Assembly: GCA_950295325.1 (NCBI GenBank)
Contig: OX485803.1
Coordinates: 38,145,554-38,209,553 of the forward strand
From: Polytrichum commune
Taxonomy: Eukaryota > Streptophyta > Polytrichopsida > Polytrichales > Polytrichaceae
Reading direction: 5' to 3'
DNA length: 64,000 nucleotides
Made by a program: the position numbers and the translations under genes. Of the stretch, positions 16,700 through 61,287 are shown piece by piece; the stretch's first letter is position 1; each line of letters opens with the position of its first letter. The notes under the pieces were generated by a model. The model saw nothing but the letters and a program-made list of their open reading frames with translations. It was not told the origin of the DNA and did no database searches.

Positions 16700-18975
16700 T
16701 TAGTACAAATAAGCAACTGGGCGTGGATGTGCCACAGCTAGCAAGGGATTGCGTCTCCGTGCAGTGACACCGAAAACCTCTGACATGTCCAACTCTTCAG
16801 CTGAGCAACCCTCGGGTAAGCGCCAATCGAATCCGTGCACCAAGCGGGCGAGCATGGTAGGTACCGTCAAGTTGGCCAGGGGCATTCCAGGGCAAGTTCG
16901 CCGACCACATCCGAACGGGATGAGAGTGCAATCCAAGCTTCGTTGCTGCATGCTGCTGCTTCTTTGCAAGATGCTGCTACTCCGTTGCAGTAACTTAGGG
17001 CTACTGCCCCTGCTGTTTGGCTGGAGGAGAAATCGAGTTGGATCGAATTCTTCGGGGCGCTCGTAGATTTCTGGATCTCGGTGGATGGCATGCAGGTTCA
17101 TGATCATGCGTGTCTTCGGTGGGAGGTTGTATCCCCCTACTTGGGAATGGGTGCGGGATTCATGTTGCAACGACAACGGAGCTCCCGGCTGCAACCGTTG
17201 AATCTCCTTCACCACCGCCTCCAGGAATGGAAGATTCTCCAGGTCAGATTCCTCCACCACTCGGTGTGTTCCGACCACATTGTCCAGCTCCGTTTGCAGT
17301 CTTTGCAGCACCTCCGGTGCTCGAAGCAGGTACGCCATTGCCCACTCGAGTGTGGTCGATTGCGTCTCGGCTCCGGCAAACAACATGTTCTGCAGGAGAA
17401 AATGTCCATCCACAATATCCAATATGAGACTCAGACGTTACGAATGCCCGGGTAAGGGGTCACTTTTCCTTTTTCCATTAGAGCCAAAGTTGCACTCGAA
17501 CAAATCCACGCATCATTGCAAATGTTAGGTTTGCAAGCTTTGTAATTCAATTTCGACAGGGAAGGGATTTGTTACATCCTTTCATGTAGGTTTTCACAGA
17601 GGTGGAGAAATGGGTGCTATTGCTGCTGGCTAGCTTGCTTAAGAGGAATCTGTACAGATGTTATCCGGGTTGTGAAACTGGCAGCAGAAAGAAAAGAAAA
17701 GAAAAGAAAAGATAAACATGTGTCAATCGACAGGCGGAAGATTTACCAGGACAACGACTCGTATGGTAAAATCGTCGAGAGGGCCGGAGCCATCGTGCGA
17801 TGGGGTTGACATGAGTACATCGACGAAGTCACGGGGGCGGTGATCTGCTTCCTGCTCAGTCTGTTCCGCACGCGCTTTCCTGCGGGCATCCAGCTCAATC
17901 ATGTCGTCCAGGGTGTCGTATATGTTTTGTGCGAAGCCCATCATCTCCTTTGCGGTGCCTTGCCACTTGGTGATGAAGCTCAAGTAGGGAATGTAATCAC
18001 TCAGGACCACCCTGCCGAAAGCTGTGAAATGAGCGCCCACCATATCTTGGTACCGCTGCGCTTCGCCTAACTTGCCCTCCTTCTCTTCCTTGAAGAATCT
18101 GACATCCAACAACCGGAGGGACAGCCATCATCAGTCTTGGCTTAATTTCATCATGAACGCTCAAACTAACCTTACTCAGAGATTCACCTCGAGAATGTAT
18201 GCAACCATCCCAATGTGCAGTGGTGGGACATACTAAGAAAGAAAAGGAAAGTTGTGTACCGTTTGTTGAGGACCATCCGCGTGATTATGTTGGTGGCGGT
18301 GTTTAGAAGTTGGAACCGGAGATTGATCACTCGGTCATCCTCCGTGCTCTCGGTGGACTTTCGCAGAATGAATTTCATCAACGTAGCCATCTCCTCTGCT
18401 CTCCCAGCCTGGTAGGAAGCGAGGCGCTTTTTGGTGAACAGCTGAGTGGAGCAGATAGACCTCAAGTGGCGGTGCGGAGGGCCATAGGGCGACGATACAA
18501 GGTCCTTATCCTTGAGCAAGATGGAGTAGAAGAGCTTGTCAGGGCGGTGCGCAAACTCCAAGTCATGGTTTATGAGGAAATCTTTGGCCACCGCGGAGGA
18601 GGAGATGATAATGCAAGGGACGGATCCCAAGCGCAGGAACATTAGGTCTCCATACTTCTGGGCCAGCTTCCGCAGCGACAGATGAGGCAAGGGTCCCAAA
18701 CTTGTCAAGTTGCCAATGATCGGCCAACCCCGAGGCCCGGGAGGCACACTCTTCCCAAGCTTCCTCGACAGCAACGACTGTAGAATCATCGTCACTGCCA
18801 CCACAAATGACACCGACCATAACAACCGCTCCACAGGCACCTCATTCAAGGAGCTCGGGTATAAGGAGCTCGACTTGAAATTTACCATCTGCACTCCCAA
18901 CCCCCCAAATCCTAAGCCGATTAAGTCCTGCAAGTAATCACTGCTGCTGCTACAGTTGCTGGCCGGGGTCACCAT
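16700..18975 (-). CDS. cytochrome P450, A-type (CYP71 clan), three exons
   Basis: A haem monooxygenase, predicted to be anchored in the ER. Exons placed by GT/AG and phase are 18975-18260, 18098-17747 and 17389-16700, giving 585 aa. An N-terminal hydrophobic anchor (about residues 52-69) precedes the proline hinge PPGPRGWP (78-85). The I-helix motif AGAET lies at 361-365 and the ExxR motif, as KEIQR, at 417-421. FDPTRF is at 471-476 and the haem loop PFGCGRRTCPG at 514-524, with Cys522 as iron ligand. The protein is longer than the usual 500 or so residues. It has a long N-terminus (Met30 is an alternative start) and an extra Ser/Gln/Leu-rich stretch (about 483-507) before the haem loop. All catalytic motifs are intact. 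The substrate cannot be told from sequence. A candidate promoter lies at 20.2-20.5 kb. Confidence 0.88.
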
Positions 18976-19492
18976 GACACGTCAACGGTCCGAAAACAAC
19001 GATCCCACTGATAAGAGGACTGATAGTATGAGTAACTAGCCCTGATGAATCTCGACAAATTTCCAGCTTCACTGGTCGGTACCAAAGAGCTTGCCGAAGA
19101 TCAAGATGATTCTTGACGTGTACTGCACCATTGAACACGTGCTTCAGAACCAGCTCGCGAGGGTGAGTTGTGGTCTGCGTGAAGATCGAGGTTCGTCATC
19201 GCCATTTGGTTGGACACTAAGAGGCACAGATGCAAAGTGGTGCGCGCCATGGCAGACAGGATTACACTTTCTGATTTAATCAATAATCGGCTCACAATGT
19301 GACTGGGGGCGGGAATAATTCGGCTACCGCTCGACTGAATCAGTTTTCAAAAGTCAGCGGGCTCACTGTTCAGTCCTTGAGAGAATCTTCAACGTGTTGT
19401 CTGTTTCCGGATGGCCTCCAGAAAGACTGACTCACTAATTCCTCATCGACCTAACCCAATTTTCATGACGAACTTCCCATGAGAGGAAGTAG

Positions 19493-35885: not shown

Positions 35886-37599
35886 CACCCTAACCTTGAT
35901 AATGTCACACCCTCCGTTTCACCAAAAAGTGTGATATAAACAAGGTGTGACATACTTGATAATGTCACATTTTGTGCATAATGTGATATTATCAAAAAAT
36001 ATGTAGAAAATCAAAATATAATTACAATTTATTTTTTAAAAAATACGAGACTTCAATGTTTACCAATGTAAAATCTAATTCAAAATTGTGAATAACAACA
36101 AGAGCACATCATAATGTGTCATTGAGATCAGGTAAAGACCTCTCACTAGAGACAAAGAAGCTTCTAATGTCACATTGTTTTGTTGATGTTAAATGTGCAA
36201 CACCAATTCTAATGAGTTTGTCATGGATTTTTTCCATTTCTAACAACTCATGAGTGCTGAAAATCTGAGAACCTTGGCTAGCCATAAAATTCAAAACATC
36301 TTTAGCATATTTTTGTGCATCGCTTAGCTTCACTACTTTAGACTCATCATCTCTGCTATCAACAATCAATGGGTCCACTTCCATGGAATCAAGAACCTGT
36401 TCGCCATCTTGCACTAATTGCACAAGCTCCTCAGTAGAAAATTCCACCTCAAAATCATCTTCACCTTCCATGTTTATGTGCTCCAAAGGACAAAGCTTTT
36501 CTACAGGCTTGCCTTCAACATCCAAACCCAAATTTAATGCGGCGATGAGTCTACCCAATTCCAAAGTTGCTTCCTCCATTTTGGACTTCATACGTTCATC
36601 AAGATTGTTTATATTTGCAGGCAATATGGCGGACTTTCTCCAACAATTTCTAATGGTTTGATCATCTAATTCATGCCATGCCGCCACACACCATAGCATA
36701 GCTTGAAATACATCAACATTCAATTTCCCAAAATCTTCATTTGAGTTGTTATCAATTTGTTGCAAAGTCCAGGCAACAAGCTTGCGCTTATAGCACATTT
36801 TGAATGCTGCAATCACTCCTTGATCCAAAGGCTGAACAACTGAAGTCACATTTGGTGGAAGGAACAAGATAGTGATATGGGAGAGTACAAAAGCATGAAA
36901 CCCATCTATAACTTTCTTGACCTCACCATGAATATCATGGCTTCCTGCATTATCCATAATAATGCAAATCTTTCTGTCTTTCAATGCCATTCTTCGGTTC
37001 TCACTCTTCACCCAATGTGTAAAAACATCACCATTCATCCAGGCTGAATTGTTAGAATTATAGTGTACTATCCTATTTGGATCAAAATTCCGAGGAAAGC
37101 ATCTGGGACGCGCTGCTTTGTGAATGAAAACAAGCTTCAATTGCTCCTTCCCTGAGATATTAGTGCAAAGCCCCAATGTCACACGGTCCTTCTTTTTCTT
37201 ATTTCCTTTCGCCTTCCCAATATTCAAAGTCTTATAAGGAGAGGCTCTATAATACAAACATGTCTCATCATACGATGCAGGCGGAGCTGCGAGAAGTTGA
37301 TCTGCGAGAGAAACCGTTGCTTCTTCGGCACATGAGATTCAAGAACCCAAGATTCAAGCGGAAGTAGGTGAAGATGCCGACGTCATCCATAGAATTTGTT
37401 GTCCATCCGGCCTTTTTTCATCCATGTTACTTGTTATTATCACACTTACACTACAAATTTTGAAAAACAAATGTGACATTATCAAGGGTGATAGTGATAA
37501 TAACGAGGGAGTTTTACACTATGGAAATCGGTTTCAAACTTTTAGGTGACAATATCAAGGTGTTCTATTAACAAGTGTGATATTATCAAGGTTAGGGTG
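35886..37599 (-). mobile_element. pogo/Tigger-like DNA transposon, 1714 bp
   Basis: TA (35884-35885 and 37600-37601) flanks terminal inverted repeats of about 25 bp that differ at one position. The left end is 'caccctaaccttgataatgt' and the right end is its reverse complement with 'aatatc'. Subterminal copies of 'tgtgayattatca' lie inside both ends (about 35930-35995 and 37465-37590) and could be transposase-binding sites. One long minus-strand frame with a DDE-type nuclease fills the centre. Confidence 0.88.
36109..37338 (-). pseudogene. pogo/Tigger-type DDE transposase lacking the N-terminus
   Basis: The frame is open from 37338 to a stop at 36109 (about 409 codons) without an early ATG. 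The first catalytic block is YDETCLYYRASPYKT, the second IIMDNAGSHD and the third PPNVTSVVQPLDQGVIAAFK. This is a DDD triad with 42 residues between the second and third Asp. A long acidic tail follows and ends with QCDIRSFF (36154-36177), which fits the PCNA-interacting consensus Q-x-x-[ILM]-x-x-[FY]-[FY]. Related transposases begin with a CENP-B-type helix-turn-helix DNA-binding region, which is absent: only about 260 bp separate the frame from the inverted repeat. The catalytic and tail regions are uninterrupted, so the element is a 5' deletion derivative or was lost recently. Confidence 0.8.
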
Positions 37600-51855: not shown

Positions 51856-52032
51856 ATGAATCCGGTTGCAACATTGGAATTCCCTGGATCCAGGGTTAGC
51901 ACAAGGATTTTGGTGGAAGAAGCGGAAGTGGAGCTCAAGGAATTCTCCGAGAATGTCCACGATGCTCTAATTTCTTTAACGCTGTCGGATTCGGGTTTCG
52001 ATTCGACTAGAGCAGTACAAAGGAGTTTGTAG
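51856..52032 (+). CDS. 58-codon upstream ORF in the leader
   Basis: Starts with MNPVATLEFPGSRVSTRILV, continues with an acidic helix (EEAEVELKEFSENVHDALIS) and ends with TAG at 52030. Its composition is protein-like rather than AT-rich noise. It could be a regulatory uORF, part of an alternative first exon, or chance. No family is recognised. Confidence 0.3.
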   Translation: MNPVATLEFPGSRVSTRILVEEAEVELKEFSENVHDALISLTLSDSGFDSTRAVQRSL

Positions 52033-52827
52033 TCCTCTCGTTCCTCAAGGCAGCCATTTGGTGATTCATAACCTTTGACTGAAAGAGAACTTGAGGTCAA
52101 AATTGCGTAGTCGTAAGATAAGACAAGGTGAAGGTCGAGGCAGCGCCGGGATTGCTTCTGACATTAAGGTAGTAATTATTATTTGCGTGGATTTTACAAG
52201 TAGGGAGCTGAAATGCGAGTGATGCGCGAAGGCAAAACCATTGACAGAGCAGTTTGGCTGGCCAAACGTGGTGGACCCTGCAAAGAGCCAGATCGACTCA
52301 GAAGTGAGTGTCTTTCGCTCAATTTTGTCTCCTTTTATCTAATCTATTTCTGTCCTAAGATCAGGGTTTTATAATCTCATTCACCCGAGCCCTTCTTTGA
52401 AGCAGAGTTGAGTCGGGCTATGCTTCTTCTGTGCTGTAAAGGTCATGAAACTACCTACTGCCCTCGTTTAATTTGATACTGTACGTGCAGTCGGGCAATT
52501 ATCGTTTGGAGTTTCAATTCCACTTGACAACATTGCATCTTTGGATGATGTGTTATGTTCATTCTTTGACGATTTATTTGAATGTGGATGTCTCTGATTT
52601 ACATGATACGGCGTACTAATTCGCAGATTTATAGCTCACCTTATTCCATTATCCCCTTCTCATAATTTATCTCCCTTCAGACAACAGAGATTCTTGACAA
52701 CTGAAGAGCTCATGGGTTGATCTACAGTGTGGTTGCAGGCCAAAGTCTATATAGAGGTTATGTTGATGAAGAAGTAGGAGTGTAATGAGCGTTGATTCTA
52801 CAGAGAGGTGCAGAAGGAGGCAGCACC

Positions 52828-55800
52828 ATGTGCGAGGCTCACTTCTCCGAAATGCGGTGGTACTCAGAGCTTTCTACCACTGCATTTTGCGAAGCTCTGG
52901 ACCTGGTACGCTCCTCCGTTGATGTGACCTTTGTGAAAGGCACCTTTGATTTGTGGCTCTCAACCTTGGCTCTATCCTGCGATTATTTCCAGTTCAATAA
53001 CTTAAATGATCCATATTACCTCTGTGCTAACCTCAAACCTAACGTTTCTAGGTTGGACAATTCATGTGCTGAGCCTTATGTAATACTCAAGTTAGTGACA
53101 TAGTCAGTTTCCTGATTGGGGGCATAGCTGAGTTATAGGCCTGTTTGACAGGCACCAGTTGGGAAGGTCTTTGTGTTTTAGCCTCGTGGCACGACACAAA
53201 GCGTTCTGTTAGTCAGCAGTGAGTATGTCTGCCACTCCATGTGAAAGGTCTATGTCTGCCCCTTAGGTATTCACCGGACTTTTTGAAAAGTGTAGGGTGC
53301 CTACAGCAAGGGCTACTCACATACGTTTGCCTTATTTGTCTTTCTCAAGCCCTGAGGCCATCCACGGCCTGTTGGAAAGTTTTTACTTAGGGCTGTCTTC
53401 CTCTGGTATTTCTGGCTTTTGATGTGGGTTTAACAGATGGCCGGCTGGGGATCACGTCAAAGACCTGACAAGTCTCCATTGGCTCTCGGTTGCAGCGTAG
53501 GATACTCCTACAGAAGCGGCAGTCTTATGGGAGGAGTAAACGAAGACCCCCACTACTGGAACCTGCCAGTGCAGAGTTTATTTCAGCCTTGGCAGCTGGG
53601 ATCAATTCAAGACATACCCTGCAGATTGGATGTGGGTTGTCGACACTTGCACTTGCTGCAGGTAACAGTCATTTCACATTCATATTTTTTGGTTTTGTGA
53701 GTCATCTGGACAGGAGTTTTGGTTCCGATATTTAGCCTCACTGTGTAACTTACCATTGTGCTGTGAATGTACTCTGCCATATATTGTACTTGTACTTGAT
53801 AGAATACTAGTGGATTCTGCTTTATTTACTCAAAATAAGCTACTCTACCTGCAGCTGCGCGAGCTACAAACAGTCGCCTGTGGTCTGTGCACCATGAGAA
53901 AGAGAAACAACGTGTTGTACAATATTTTTTGAAAGACATGGGGTTGATGGAGTATGTTGAATTCGTCACTGAGGATCCATCAACTTTCATTCCTCAAAGA
54001 GAAGGTATATTTTAGAATTGTGGAGAACGTCTTGCAATTTGAGAGAGCATCCTTTAGAGCAGTTAGAAGGAACTATCAGGTCTGGAAAAGTGTATTCAGG
54101 TTATGGAAGCTGCAAAATGAGCTCTTGAACTAGAAAAATGGACCTGAGGTGTTTGCAGCTTCACTTGTGATGGCCTTAGAAGAAACGAGTATTGAAATAT
54201 GGTTTTAGGGTTTATATCACAATGTGTGCATTTTACAAACCTGACAGTAAGAGGGTGGGGCACAGGAGTTGAATTTGTGCTGCTGTCGGGCCTGCCTGAA
54301 CGGTACATTGAGCTTTTTGACCTCTTAAACCTTAAGAAAGGAGCAATTGTGGTGGCGGACAATGCCCTAGATGACACTACAAATGCATACATTCGGCATG
54401 TGAGGCGACAACCTGGTGTTGATTCTTCAACCCTGCCACTCAGTCGAGGCATTGAAGTTACCAAGCTTGTCACTTGGGAGTCATTCAAGGCAGGGTGAGT
54501 AACAGTAATTCAATTCAAGAAGAAATCATTCTCAAGGGTAACAGTTTGAGCTTCTTTGGCGAAGCCATTTAGTCTTGAAAATCATGCAATGTGTTACTTA
54601 ATGTAATCCAATCATTACAGATTGAAGTTGCCAAGTATGCAGATGCATCTTAAGAACCTTAATATTTGCTAGATTACCATGGTATTAAATCTACACGATA
54701 ACTGTAGGAGGAAGAAGTATGGTGGCATTGGAGATCCAATCAATGATAAAGAGTACATTTCACGGCGGCCAGGTCTACAGGGAGTAGGAGCTTCAAACCT
54801 CCCTCTATCTTCCAGCAGCCTTCTCTTCTCTACAAATTCAGATGCCTTATCTGAAACCAGCTCAAGTTCTAGGCCAAAGACACTCCTGATACAATTAAAG
54901 CAGAGCAACTCTGGAGTGTTGGTCAGCTGTAGGGAAAGCCCTGCCAATGTCTCTGAGGCTGTTGTCCCTACTGAACCTGCTTCCAACGCACAGGAAGCTT
55001 CACATCAAGGTGAGTTATGTGGTAGATGATTTCAAGTTATGAGCAGTACCAAAGTTTATCCTTATCAGTTAGGTAAACAAGCTATACAGTGGCACCACAC
55101 ACATCATTCATAGGGTAAATGGCCAAACCCGATTAGTAAGTCCAATGTCATGTGGATGTTTGTGTTGTTAAGAGGTGCCCTAATTAGTGGGGTGCCTTAA
55201 ACTCAAGGCCTTCACCCGGATCCCATGGGAGCTCCAAGGTTAAGTTTCCTTAGGCCAGATAGTGCTCAGATGGGTGACCTTCCTAGCACTTGATTTCCTG
55301 TGCATCCTGCCATTTTGATCCACCCAATCATAGTGGGAGTATCTGGGTGAAGTGGATGTTCTCTACCAACCATGTGGGAATCTTGAGGCTTTGTCTTGGG
55401 GGAGATTAGGGGTGGGCTGGCTTGTTTGCACCCATTCAAGGTGTTCAATTTTGAAAAGAGGTAGTATTCTTCCAGGTCACTCTAATTCTCGTGATGTTCA
55501 TTTCAGAATTTACACATATAATTAGAATAACTACAAGATGAAGGAACACCACAAATCATGCCCTGGGCAACATTGGAGTCATCCTTTCTTTGTTTTTTTG
55601 CCCTTTTTAGTGGTCCCCGGAGTGCCACCTGACTCCAGTTGCAAGGTGTGTATGTGCAGATGCTATTGAGGAGCAGTTCAAGTCTATGCAAAGTCTTGCT
55701 GAACAGTGGCGGCTACAACTGGCTGCACAAGATGAAAGCTCTGGTGTGTCAGGAGCACCTGCAGAGACTTTAAAAGCAAAGCCTCTCGAGCATATAAGTG

Positions 55801-57647
55801 ATGAGGTGGCGTCACCATTGTGTAAACTCTCTGTAGTTTTGCCACAGGACCAAGCTCCAGGAGGTGTTCAAGAGAAAAGTCATCTGAAGGTGAGGCTTAG
55901 TCTGTGTGTTACGGATTTCTGCACTGAGAGCCTCGTAATGTACAGCACTGCAAAGCTTCTGCTGCACACACTTCTGCTTGTGTATGTCTGATGTGAGTGA
56001 GGGTTGGTTTCACTCGTATCCATGTAGTTTATTCTCAGATAGAAATCCACTATGAGGATTTGAGTGTAAATCGCAGACAGTTTTGAAAGTGACTATGGAT
56101 TTTTAGGTATCTGTCATTTCTTGTATATATGTTATCGTGATTTTTCTTTTCTTGGCACTGCTAATCTTAAATGAGTATTCATTAGACATTGGTGAGGTCC
56201 TTCTTTCTCCTTTTCTTTAGTTATATTTGTAATGCACTCCTTTCATGTTGATAATCTCTCCTTGTCTTTGTTATATGTAACCTAAGAAGACTGCAGAGTT
56301 CTAGTTCAAGTATTTTGTATTGATTATCAGAATGATGTCTTTTTTGATGATCTATTAAATAACAATTTAAAAAAAGTGAGAGTCCCAACTACTACTACTG
56401 AAATCTCTGCACTTCATTGATCAGTTTAGGGACCCCTTGTAAAACAGATGCAGAGGCATGTTCCAAAATATTTGGTTTAGTAAGGGGTCTCTAAGCATGT
56501 TCATCTATGCCATTTATCATGCCATCTACGTTAGGTTAGTTTTTACAAGTAGGTGCCTGTGCTCATATGCCTTATCCACAAGGCTCTTAGACCAGCACTT
56601 TTGACGTCTTTCTGCACGATCAGAGGGCTTAATAGAGGACTACCTGTGCCTTCATGACTATTACCTTTACTCTGGGTTGTATGTTACTGAAAATTTAAGC
56701 ACTATTGATCTATAAGTTTCTATAAGATTAGGTCGGTCTCCACATTCTCCCAGTTGTAGGGTACATCTGATTGGGTATGTGCTATATAAATATCCAGGTC
56801 AATCATGACGAGTATGTGACAAGACTCCATCGGCATTTGCCTGTAAGTCTTCTAGTATCCTATGTGTGAAAACCAGATCCAAATTTTTGTTATAGTACTT
56901 GAGATTGGTTTCTTCCAGCATTGAGTTTACGTGATTTCTCAAATGTGAAACAAATTTGCCTGGTCTGAACTTGCACATGCACTTGTTAATCGGGGACTAC
57001 AGTGGGTTCAAACTTTATTGATCTAAATGATTTTCTTGATATGATTTGAGCTTATGAATAAATTAATAGATTCACAGTTTATTGTTGCCCTTGCTTCCAA
57101 ACTTTTTCAGTTGATTCTCTGTGCTCTTTTGTTTAAATCATGGATTTGTTTTAAAAGACCCGGCCACTATTTGTTAGGTAGATGACTGAAATAGAGGGTT
57201 TTTAGTGCTGGTTTGTAGGAGAGGGTGAATGAGGAGGTTTAAGGAAGATTTCAAGAATTGGGTTGACCTTGATGAGATCGAAGAAAAATATTGAGAACTA
57301 TTTCAACCTTTTTTTGGAATGTTGGCATATGGTGCAGGAATAGTTATAGTACTCATGTGTGCTGTTTACATTTGTTTGTAGATGGATGTGGAAAAAAATC
57401 GTGCCTCCTTACCATCAAGTGATGGTTCGTTTGGAGAAAGAGTTGCACCTGAGCCTGCATTATCCACTGAAGCTCCAGTTCTCATTGAGGCTAGCACCAG
57501 TGGAAATGAAGAACCTGTTTTCCATGTGGATTTTCATATTGAGAATGGGCAAACAGAGGTCACAGTCGAGGGAGCTGACCAAGAAATGTTGCTTTTTGAC
57601 CTTACACTTGCATTTAATGAGACTGGAGTCAGGTTTGCGCCACACCT

Positions 57648-57697
<50 letters not shown>

Positions 57698-58770
57698 TAG
57701 AATTCTCCTCCAAGAACCGACATTAGTGGAAAGTTCATATAAGTGTGAGCCCATCCAGGAATCAACTTCAAAGAGTGTTTCTGGTGCCACATCTGGAATC
57801 ATCTTAGCTTGATAACTTGTGTATTATTTAATAGCACATTGAAGTGTGTGAAAGTTACAAAACAAGGAATTAAAAGACAATTCACTCACAGAATTGGTAG
57901 TTTCTAGATTATGAATTCTGTTCATAGTTAGCAATTTATACAAAGTGTATTGGGTTGAAATCCAGCTGAAAATTGAATACAAAGGTTGAGCTCCATTCTC
58001 ACATGTACAAGTTCTTAGAGAGACCGACAGTTCATAGGTTGACAGTTGAAAAGGCGTAAAACAACACAAAGTCATATGGATTGCCAGATCTTATATTTTT
58101 CCTAAAGTCTCTGGTCTTGGAATTGTTTCAGAAGACCTGGATGCCTGAAAATCCAAGCATGGTTATATATTAGCAGAAGTTGTCTCATTTTACTAGAGGT
58201 AGTCTTCTGATTAAACTCCAGATGAGTTGGCTAAAAGGTGAGTTTGAGAGCTTATCCATAACGTCACCCAAGTTTTCTTAAGGCTGAAATGAACATCCTA
58301 GGATTAGTGGGCCAAGCTGGCCTTGCATAGGCTGAGCTGGGATTGAAGGGTGCCTGGTCCTATACATCAACCCTTATTTTAGATCTTAGAGGTCTCAAAT
58401 TTTTTTGAATTGAAAGAGGAGGTCCAAGAGTTTCATCAAACTTTCAAGATTAGGCTCTGTCACAATAGAAGAGTCTCTCAAAGAGGGACTGAGCTCCTAT
58501 TCAAGGATAACTCTATTATCTTCATTATTATCAATGCTATCCATGGATTTGATGTATAATGGCTGCTCCTCTTACAAAGTTTTTTTGTGGTGGCTTGGTT
58601 GCAGTGTCAAAAGGGCAAAGATATCCACACAAGATTCTTATGTGGTTGATGTCTTCTATGTGGTGGATGGCGGAACCAAGGGACCGCTTTTGGAGACTCG
58701 TTGGGAGGCTGTTAGGAAACGCATTCTAGACCGGCTTGCAGAGCGTCGCCAACTCCTAGCAGGAGACTAG
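52828..58770 (+). CDS. DUF1442 (methyltransferase-like) - ACT domain fusion protein, 8 exons
   Basis: Exons by GT/AG and phase: 52828-52905, 53496-53661, 53855-54004, 54248-54494, 54708-55009, 55660-55889, 57382-57632, 58605-58770. They total 1590 nt (529 aa plus stop) with every junction in phase. Residues about 12-215 form a Rossmann methyltransferase-like domain of plant DUF1442 type: EPASAEFISALAAG, the motif-I-like HTLQIGCGLSTLALAA, WSVHHEKEKQ, VEFVLLSGLPERYIELFDLL, GAIVVADNALDD and LPLSRGIEVTKLV. Residues 216-435 are Ser/Pro/Glu-rich, with one helical patch (DAIEEQFKSMQSLAEQW). Residues about 437-515 make an ACT domain, EVTVEGADQEMLLFDLTLAF followed by VKRAKISTQDSYVVDVFYVV, most like ACT domains of GlnD and plant ACR proteins, which sense small ligands such as amino acids. 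The reaction is unknown. An exon-like stretch at 52213-52302 fails to join in frame, so I treat it as leader. Confidence 0.82.
55190..55480 (+). mobile_element. 5S rRNA-derived SINE in intron 5
   Basis: About 120 bp (55190-55312) align along the whole of plant 5S rRNA. GGGTGCC is at the start, then CACCCGGATCCCATGGGAGC, AAGGTTAAG and GATGGGTGACCTTCCTAG, which correspond to the 5S internal promoter boxes. A non-5S body follows, including 'tccacccaatcatagtggga'. The 3' limit is approximate. It could also be a fragment of a Cassandra-type element, whose LTRs carry 5S sequence. Confidence 0.7.
57646..57693. repeat. (CT)n microsatellite beside a splice donor
   Basis: About 24 CT units beginning 13 bp after the donor of exon 7 (GT at 57633). 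Reading through it gives the Leu/Ser-repeat tails of several spurious frames. Confidence 0.95.
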
Positions 58771-61287
58771 TGTTGTTGGTGGCCTGTCTGACTAGATCCC
58801 ATCCCCAAAGAAAGACAAAGACAATGTTGAGGAGTTCTTCCCAACACTTGACACTGGTTATGGTGTGCTATGTTCTGTACATTTTGGAAAGGTTGAACGG
58901 TGACGGCATATGGGTGGTGAGGCTGTTGCCGTTCCAAAGTTCCAAAACATTCAGCCATCAACAATTGGCATGTTGATTGAACAGTGCAAGAATGGGCCGG
59001 GACATTACTTCACATGCCCTAGCACAACAGGCTGGGATGGCACGGGCCCAAACTAGTTAAACACATGATGGAAAGGTATCCGCATACAAACCACCATTCT
59101 TTTTGGATGCCTTAGTTGGGTTCAGTATTTCACATGTTTGTGAGCCTGGGACTCTTTTTTTATCATGAGAAACGGCTGAAGTGTTGGAGATTATCAGTAC
59201 TGAATCTGGCAGCTTTTGTTTGGTTATGGTGTGTTGTCGAAGCCTCCCCTGTACATGTATGTTTGGTAACTTATTCCATCACAATTTCCTTGTTTGTATA
59301 ATGGACCTGTGTCCTTCCCTTGTTCTGAAGTTTCATTGCAGATCCTTCCACATACTCCATAGACGAGGCAAAATCGTGGTAAGTGCTTCAAACCTGTTCA
59401 TATCATGTCATATGGTACACTATTGACCTTATTTCGACACTAAATACATTGGGGGTAATATTGTGGCTGCGCACCAATTCACCAACTCACAATATATTAC
59501 ATCAGAGGTCCACGTTGTAGGCTGCAATATTTGTATTTGGATTGAAAGTAGTGTCCACTTGAACCTCCAACCTTGGGGAGGGATAAGAATGTGGATTTAT
59601 CATGGCGGCTTGATAAGTGTAACTAGGGCTGCACACCATTTTTATTTACTATGGGCCACACTATATACTGCATACTATAAATATCCTTCATACCAAATTG
59701 TTGGGAACTTTATGTACTTTACTAGGTATACTATGTAGTTTGGCAAAGTTTTGAGATCTGAAGGCACCATCGTGAATGATTTATCACAATACTGGTACTA
59801 TGGTAATATATGGTATCACAATATGGCTAACCACTGTGGAGACACACTACTGTACTGACTGGTGAATTCTCGTTTTGAGTGAGTTCTTTGCAATATGGTA
59901 AATTCATTTTTGTGGACACTAAATGCATGTAACTTCACTTGAAAACTTGATGTGTTGTTGGTTTTAAAGCCAACTGACGCCCTAATTTTCTTAGAGACCC
60001 CAATTCAGTCACCTAAGTTTTTCCCCCAAGTGGGCAAATACTTTTTTCAACATGAACAATAGTTATCACTGTAGGATTAAAAATGGAGCTCACTGGCTGA
60101 AAGAGACAAAATGTCTTTATTAACGTTCTTCACTTTGGGGAGTCCTATGTGACTAACACTACTGTAGTCAAACGAGGTTATTGCCTTTGAACATGCCCAT
60201 AGAAATTAGATATGTTTGATTCATGGAAACTCAATGTAAATAAGGCATTTGATAATTTATCTAGGTCAGGTAAGGAATTGTGGTGCCCAAAGTGACTGCG
60301 ATAGGCACTTCCATCTTACTTTCTGTTGGAGATATATAGAGTTACTGCCGTAGTGGCCTCAAAACATCACTTATTGATTGCTTTATTCCAATTAGATCAA
60401 TACATGTATCTCACGGAATAATAATGAGATTTGAGCTCATATATATATATATATATATGTATATATGTTGCGTACATACACTTGGTCACCATTGTTGTTT
60501 AAAATTCTATTTTCACTTCTTGTGTAATAAGTTGTATTACATATAGTTTCAATCTCATAAACCAATGAATTTGAACCAATCTAGCTTATGGCCTCCCATC
60601 TAAATGGTGGGGATACTTGTTTTTTTATGAAGCGTTTTATGATGTTCTATATTGATAGTTCTAGAATCATCTTTATCAATCAAGTATAGATTATGACACA
60701 GCCTTTCATCAATGAGTAAAATTATAGAAGTTGTCCAATTTTTCACATAAATTGCCTAGGTACTACTTTGTTAGCAAAGTAATAGAAATAGGGTGAGATC
60801 TGATATAGGGTACTTTTTATTTTTGCAAGCACACATATTGAAAAAATATTGAAAATATACCATTATTTCTATTGACATATTTCATTATAAATAATGTACA
60901 ATTTCCAATACTGTCATGTACTAGTTTTTTTTTTAATAATTACATATAGGATATTGTGTTTGAGATGACATAACCCTTCTCAAGGTTCTTTCCTAAGATG
61001 TACACAATGCGGATGAAGATTTGTATAGGGCTACTCATGTTATCTAGTTCAAACTCTCTTGTACAATCCATGCTAGTTGTAGATGGTTTGGGTAATTTAA
61101 AACAACAAAGAAGAGGCAATTTTTGAATTAAGGTAAGGTTTGGGAATTTTTTTAAGTTCAAACAATCAAATGGTGCAAGATATGTGGCAATGTAGAAGTA
61201 GGAAAAAAAAGATAAAAAAAGATAAATACACCCCCCAAATGTAAAAAAAACTAAATTAAATATTTTTAACACATGCATTTGAGTAAT
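58771..61287. other. 3' flank and gene-poor region
   Basis: The first several hundred bases probably include the 3' untranslated region of the DUF1442-ACT gene. Beyond that nothing is recognised except a (TA)n run at about 60440-60460. Confidence 0.45.

Follow-up and report, generated by a model that had tools for sequence, protein, structure and literature searches.

A DUF1442-ACT fusion gene at two loci in the moss Polytrichum commune

The ACR proteins of plants have repeated ACT domains; in Arabidopsis, ACR1-12 are said to contain between two and four each, with no further domain recognised (PMC3173338). Bacterial GlnD (PII uridylyltransferase) has two ACT domains preceded by nucleotidyltransferase and hydrolase domains. 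The plant DUF1442 proteins (PF07279) form, as their name implies and to our knowledge, a family without an assigned function, and none of the passages available from papers on DUF1442 assigns one; similarity to solved enzymes places the protein studied here near the cation-dependent O-methyltransferases (COMT, family 3; Methyltransf_3). Here we analyse a nuclear gene of Polytrichum commune that joins a DUF1442 domain to a single C-terminal ACT domain. It occupies positions 52828-58770 on the plus strand of a 64,000-nucleotide stretch of DNA, hereafter the window (GenBank assembly GCA_950295325.1, contig OX485803.1), which corresponds to C1:38145554-38209553 in our searches of the whole genome (408 Mb, 64 contigs). 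The plastid contig (C8) encodes a PsaB that scores highest in the PDB against 7ksq, 6l35 and 8htu (1700.6 bits), which we take to be Physcomitrium photosystem I, ahead of 9lut (1663.2) and 7wfd (1627.4), as is likely for a moss. An earlier note, made from the sequence without database searches, had described the gene as an eight-exon fusion and proposed that it encodes an allosterically controlled enzyme or sensor.

No report of a DUF1442-ACT architecture was found in the literature searched, a scope that took in neither most subscription journals nor any plant proteome annotation, and the architecture may already be annotated somewhere. In the texts covered in part, DUF1442 and "ACT domain" co-occur only as separate table entries, and no such fusion appears in the listed titles or abstract beginnings, either of papers that combine ACT and methyltransferase with mosses or fusions or of those that combine ACR with Physcomitrella.

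One gene of nine exons at two loci

The DUF1442-ACT fusion is real. Searching the P. commune genome with the eight exons of the earlier model identified a second copy on the same contig (C1:76259968-76264236, minus strand), which was matched by all eight exons with their order kept. Both loci have nine exons with identical phases after the first eight (0, 1, 1, 2, 1, 0, 0, 2), and exon lengths are equal for six of the nine (exons 1-4, 8 and 9), giving proteins of 538 residues in the window and 541 in the copy. With exons in the same order and every one of the eight intron phases preserved in the copy, it is very unlikely that two genes were merged by chance, and the view of the earlier note that this is one gene is borne out by a diverged second locus. 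The protein starts with a DUF1442 domain and ends with one ACT domain; the linker between them, ~230 residues long, changes fast but contains two short blocks that are conserved.

Across 526 aligned codons the two proteins share 63% identity, with a ratio of nonsynonymous to synonymous change (dN/dS, estimated by a simple counting method) of 0.28. Constraint is strongest in the ACT part (residues 437-532; 77% identity over 96 codons, dN/dS 0.09), followed by the methyltransferase-like part (76% over 207 codons, dN/dS 0.19) and the linker (46%, 217 of 229 codons aligned, dN/dS 0.47), and in each of these three parts the proportion of nonsynonymous differences was below that of synonymous differences (pN<pS) in 300 of 300 bootstraps. 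Smaller pieces gave the same sign in 287 (exon 1), 298 (exon 6), 285 (micro-exon, see below) and 300 (exon 8 before the ACT domain) of 300 bootstraps. At the DNA level, similarity between positions 52000-59500 and the copy (E <= 1e-3) is limited to the exons, with flanks of at most ~15 bases, and one leader element. Exon-confined similarity of this kind is best explained by two constrained genes.

The eight-exon join was reproduced exactly (1590 nt, 529 residues, compatible phases, no internal stops, GT-AG introns), but comparison with the copy corrects it to nine exons with a coding sequence of 1617 nt including the stop. Exon 1 (52828..52905; MCEAHFSEMRWYSELSTTAFCEALDL) lies downstream of an in-frame stop at 52786, and the copy has MPGNYFSEIRWNSDISTTAFCESLDL in its place, of equal length and phase. 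The DUF1442 domain starts in exon 2 (53496..53661), which carries motif I (LQIGCGLSTLALAA), and continues through exon 3 (53855..54004) with the strand-2 motif LWSVHHEKEKQ, in which H94 stands where relatives have E. Exon 4 (54266..54494), with the motifs VEFVLLSGLPERY and VVADNALDD, starts at 54266 and not at 54248 as in the earlier model when the copy is used as guide, the acceptor gcacag/GA at 54266 matching acacag/GA in the copy. This correction puts REGVEF in place of REVRGWGTGVEF, and the DUF1442 score, 27.2 bits before, becomes 34.5 bits. A start at 54211 was also tried and rejected, as joining there puts the frame out.

Exons 5 (54708..55009) and 6 (55660..55889) encode linker; the former is Ser-rich and the least constrained of all exons (34% identical in the copy, dN/dS 0.65), and the latter holds the conserved block SMQSLAEQWRLQLAA. 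Exon 7 (56798..56842) is a 45-nt in-frame micro-exon of phase 0-0 encoding VNHDEYVTRLHRHLP. It was absent from the earlier model, where it falls between exons 6 and 7 inside the longest intron. A splice scan had given seven candidate extra exons, of which this was the only one sought in the copy, and a local search at the copy locus found its counterpart there (48 nt, VSNVEDYATRLHWHLP). The end of the linker and the first half of the ACT domain are encoded by exon 8 (57382..57632; exon 7 of the earlier model), which begins with ATG in both copies, and the second half and the stop by exon 9 (58605..58770; previously exon 8).

Splice-site weights, which are assumed plant-like values and untrained, placed seven of seven donors within the best 2.2% of GT sites in the window and six of seven acceptors within about the best 10%, the only weak acceptor being that of exon 4 at 54248. 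In six of the eight earlier exons (all except exons 1 and 2) the codon score was highest for the model frame; the value for the last exon includes the stop codon. In a control spanning seven of these eight exons, intron windows scored as high as the exon in 10 of 4275 cases for exon 1 and in 7 of 4188 for exon 2, and never for exons 3-7. Taken by themselves, the splice and codon tests cannot establish that the halves are parts of one gene, since the linker is covered by no known family.

Residues lost from the DUF1442 and ACT domains

The N-terminal domain exceeds the Pfam cut-off for DUF1442 (27 bits) narrowly in the eight-exon model and clearly in the corrected one, and the copy scores 37.6 bits. 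General methyltransferase families stayed below their Pfam cut-offs for the corrected protein, including Methyltransf_3 with 17.7 bits (20.3 in the copy) against a cut-off of 22. A profile of 73 bacterial relatives matched residues 41-205 of the earlier model (exons 2-4) with 71 bits, and the best match to a solved enzyme was 8c9v (E 5e-7). By these matches the N-terminal domain is a DUF1442 domain belonging to the COMT-type O-methyltransferase superfamily, with a predicted COMT-like Rossmann fold. The bacterial relatives were gathered with a single bacterial methyltransferase as query: the best 80 of its 90 matching places gave 79 loci, and six shorter than 190 residues were dropped.

Four sites that read E, E, D and K without exception in the 73 bacterial relatives read Q69, H94, S139 and P142 in both fused copies. 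Motif I is two residues shorter in these copies, and D163 and N164 are retained. Each fused copy keeps 12 of the 30 columns that are invariant in the relatives. Read by eye, the seven solved methyltransferase chains whose alignments were displayed (8c9v, 7cvu, 9vsk, 4p7f, 5fhr, 6jcl and 6jcm) have the strand-2 acid and the Asp in seven of seven cases and the Lys in six of seven, with Arg in 8c9v. From the roles of these residues in COMT, we take the E at the H94 site to be the acid that holds the ribose of S-adenosylmethionine (SAM), the D at S139 to be the first metal ligand and the K at P142 to be the catalytic Lys. On that assumption, the SAM-ribose acid at the end of strand 2 is absent from both copies (H94), and two of the three metal ligands Asp, Asp and Asn are present (S139, D163 and N164). 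The fused protein would thereby differ from cation-dependent O-methyltransferases in the ribose acid, one metal ligand and the catalytic Lys. The loss of the acid, the Asp and the Lys, together with the ACT loop change described below, argues against ordinary catalysis and ordinary amino-acid binding, but not against some other ligand.

A stand-alone DUF1442 gene with an open frame and a score of 97 bits is present in the same genome (C2:17486987-17487550); it was the only such match reported by an exon-by-exon search that did not report the window gene itself and may have missed other split genes. The predicted protein is 38% identical to the window domain over 133 residues (41% over residues 47-210 in another search) and keeps 17 of the 30 invariant columns. 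It lacks the linker and the ACT domain of the fused protein and differs from it in keeping the Asp at the S139 position, with L for the strand-2 acid and R for the Lys. As an observation on the family, from one gene only, these losses hint that the DUF1442 proteins of plants might be something other than ordinary methyltransferases.

Bacterial DUF1442-ACT fusions were not found: none of the 79 loci reads beyond 217 amino acids in frame, leaving no ACT tail there in what is a limited test, and searches of prokaryote contigs and plasmids with the ACT half gave no match. Six plasmid stretches were inspected around the DUF1442-like methyltransferase gene. It follows a YqjI- or PadR-like regulator in three (one by our own reading), a TetR-family piece was seen in one other, and no regulator was listed in the remaining two.

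The ACT domain was matched by the C-terminus of the GlnD model (E 3e-9), of which only the end aligned, far below the cut-off of this whole-protein model. Pfam ACT families missed their cut-off of 27 bits (ACR10_N 18.4, ACT_4 12.9). Homology to accepted ACT domains is clear from the GlnD match and from pairwise comparison with the ACR-type ACT domains of P. commune (E 3e-11 to 8e-14), whose loci do exceed the Pfam ACT cut-off; at four loci, labelled ACR-type by our own reading, identity to the window ACT domain is 41-46% over 59 aligned positions. Profile searches, whose failure for either domain would have counted against the fusion in the earlier note, supported both, and its single ACT domain of ACR/GlnD type stands. 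The protein resembles plant ACR proteins in this domain but carries it only once, behind a domain of another kind; with one ACT and a DUF1442 domain, it falls outside a family defined by repeated ACT domains and nothing else. It resembles GlnD in its C-terminal match, whereas the nucleotidyltransferase and hydrolase domains of GlnD were both unreported by Pfam and NCBIfam, and its loop is unlike that of the second E. coli GlnD ACT domain.

The ligand loop between beta1 and alpha1 reads DQEMLL in the window gene and DQDMLL in the copy, with loss of the Gly of DxPGLL, whereas the four ACR-type loci have DxVGLL with the Gly present. The ACR11 study, in the passages covered, describes this Gly as nearly invariant and located at the Ser site of PGDH (PMC3173338). 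Its loss in the fused proteins is suggestive of, but no more than a hint at, a domain that may not bind amino acids.

An ACR9-like origin of the ACT module was considered and rejected, as the ACT domains of two P. commune loci above the ACT_ACR9_3rd cut-off hardly align with the window ACT (16.9 bits over 10 residues, and no match); by eye, these loci have an intron ~1 base from the window site. Two further ACT loci, C3:12464888 and C5:1930210, presumably arogenate dehydratase-like, were rejected as relatives because they share only a six-residue chance match.

A proposed regulatory role and its rivals

The best explanation, to which we give a probability of about one half, is that the gene encodes a conserved pseudo-methyltransferase regulator acting through ACT pairing. 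The methyltransferase-like domain would no longer methylate but would bind or dock on a partner, or sense for it. ACT domains commonly pair, and this one would pair with itself or with a related ACT domain of another protein, through which the protein would regulate a partner enzyme. Since the residue losses are identical in two constrained copies, a kept non-catalytic role is suggested in preference to decay. The plant ACT protein ACR11 is reported, in the parts of the study available to us, to interact with Fd-GOGAT, and its authors did not detect a bound amino acid (PMC4944146), providing a precedent for ACT proteins that act by contact with an enzyme.

Several observations weigh against a pseudo-methyltransferase regulator. 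Loss of the loop Gly alone does not prove loss of ligand binding, because the Gly is also absent from some ACR-type repeats in this genome (DRPKLL, GRPRVLYD) and from the first of the two E. coli GlnD ACT domains (DRPYLF). The losses of the acid and Lys appear to be partly a trait of the DUF1442 family, being seen in the stand-alone gene as well. The seeds for the bacterial set included TMERYEHK and WKDLYVPC, two of the tested motifs, and this biases the set towards relatives that carry them; the solved enzymes are for that reason the fairer control. The GCGLST loop, H94 and D163-N164 could still bind something, and other residues could form a new pocket. Finally, exon 5 is only weakly constrained, with pN<pS in 283 of 300 bootstraps at the dN/dS given above.

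It is possible, if doubtful, that the protein is instead a sensor in which DUF1442 binds SAM or a nucleotide-like ligand without catalysis and the ACT domain relays its state through changed pairing. Conservation of the GCGLST loop and of D163-N164 in both copies would fit such a role, as would the stand-alone DUF1442 gene, which is an open frame although it likewise lacks the SAM acid; the SAM-ribose-contacting residue of the relatives, however, is lost. A working, diverged methyltransferase switched by its ACT domain in response to an amino acid, as the allosterically controlled enzyme of the earlier note would be, we consider unlikely. The Rossmann-type methyltransferase fold predicted from sequence, the retained D163-N164, purifying selection and an ACT domain in cis are what such an enzyme would have, but both copies lack the SAM-ribose acid, the first metal Asp and the catalytic Lys (H, S and P for E, D and K), motif I is two residues short and the Gly of the ACT ligand loop is gone.

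A partner for the proposed pseudo-methyltransferase regulator could be sought at another ACT domain of the same genome, at C1:62997572-62998360, which appears to precede a phosphoenolpyruvate (PEP) carboxylase domain. It is 37% identical to the window ACT over 99 positions with 62 bits, against 40 to 47 bits for the four ACR-type loci. By alignment score it is the closest to the window ACT, besides the copy, among the ACT sequences compared, a ranking that needs joined exons: searching exon by exon, the window ACT found ACR-type loci first (E 6e-6 to 5e-4) and the PEP carboxylase ACT at E 0.4 and 1.1. The reverse search gave weak matches throughout outside its own gene (window E 0.14, copy 0.86, ACR-type locus 1.55). 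Inspected by eye, its intron has the same site and phase as that of the window ACT, and the PG pair is likewise lost; against Pfam ACT_ACR9_3rd it scored 24.8 bits, short of the cut-off of 27. By our own reading the candidate ACT-PEP carboxylase gene spans C1:62997572-63010385, with a join of phase 0 and one GC donor. In the joined N-terminus the Pfam PEPcase match (33.9 bits, cut-off 22.4) begins at residue 103, and of six downstream frames two exceed this cut-off (106 and 37 bits), two fall below it and two have no match. The downstream open frame ends in RNTG, which we take to indicate a bacterial-type PEP carboxylase. The ACT domain would be N-terminal to the enzyme domain in this candidate gene, whereas it is C-terminal in the window gene. 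A literature search for ACT with bacterial-type PEP carboxylase found nothing, and the available passages of a paper on PEP carboxylase evolution, in which the ACT domain was not itself searched for, contain nothing on one (PMC3521007).

These similarities allow the conjecture, which we regard as a long shot, that the ACT domains of the ACT-PEP carboxylase and of both DUF1442-ACT proteins form one small subfamily specialised for pairing and not for binding amino acids. Through mixed ACT pairs the pseudo-methyltransferase would then be a regulatory subunit of that carboxylase, linking carbon entry into amino-acid metabolism to whatever may bind to the DUF1442 domain.

Two alternatives concern transcripts, and both touch on a TATA-like word (CTATATAAA; 56782..56790, plus strand), a candidate second promoter that we think unlikely. 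The window has eight such words on both strands against 3.3 expected, none was found on the coding strand across the 8 kb of the copy, and the one at 56782 is closely followed by the acceptor of the conserved coding micro-exon. Very improbable is that the fused gene, though real, also yields an ACT-only protein of 138 residues from an alternative transcript starting near exon 8: exon 8 opens with an in-frame ATG at both loci, but a Met at an exon start may be chance and the copy lacks the TATA-like word. Hardly any weight can be given to a read-through merger of adjacent DUF1442 and ACT genes, with the second promoter before the ACT exons that the earlier note had listed among its refuting conditions, since the longest intron and TATA-like word before these exons and the ATG opening exon 8 in both copies lend it weak support at most, whereas the second locus has the identical phase-matched nine-exon structure, conserved linker blocks and the micro-exon bridge the halves and the word is absent from the copy; the second promoter was rejected on the same grounds.

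Neighbouring features and significance

The leader element shared by the two loci lies at 52204..52277 (plus strand), with its counterpart upstream of the copy at C1:76265851-76265927 (81% identity in an alignment of 77 columns that includes a 3-nt gap); these were the only two places reported in the genome. It is readable as an upstream open reading frame starting MRVMREGKTIDRAV, and the reading common to both loci is MRVM.EG.TIDRAV..AK. Elsewhere in the window, all on the minus strand, are a cytochrome P450 gene of three open frames, two of them matched by Pfam p450 (16703-18981), a transposase of the DDE superfamily endonuclease type, whose open frame has 409 residues (36112-37338), and a Wound-induced protein WI12 domain (2223-2750).

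For the DUF1442 family, a natural fusion with a regulatory ACT domain in two constrained copies provides a testable functional hint, pointing to regulation over catalysis. The related ACT domain on a PEP carboxylase of the same genome offers a concrete interaction with which this may be tested.

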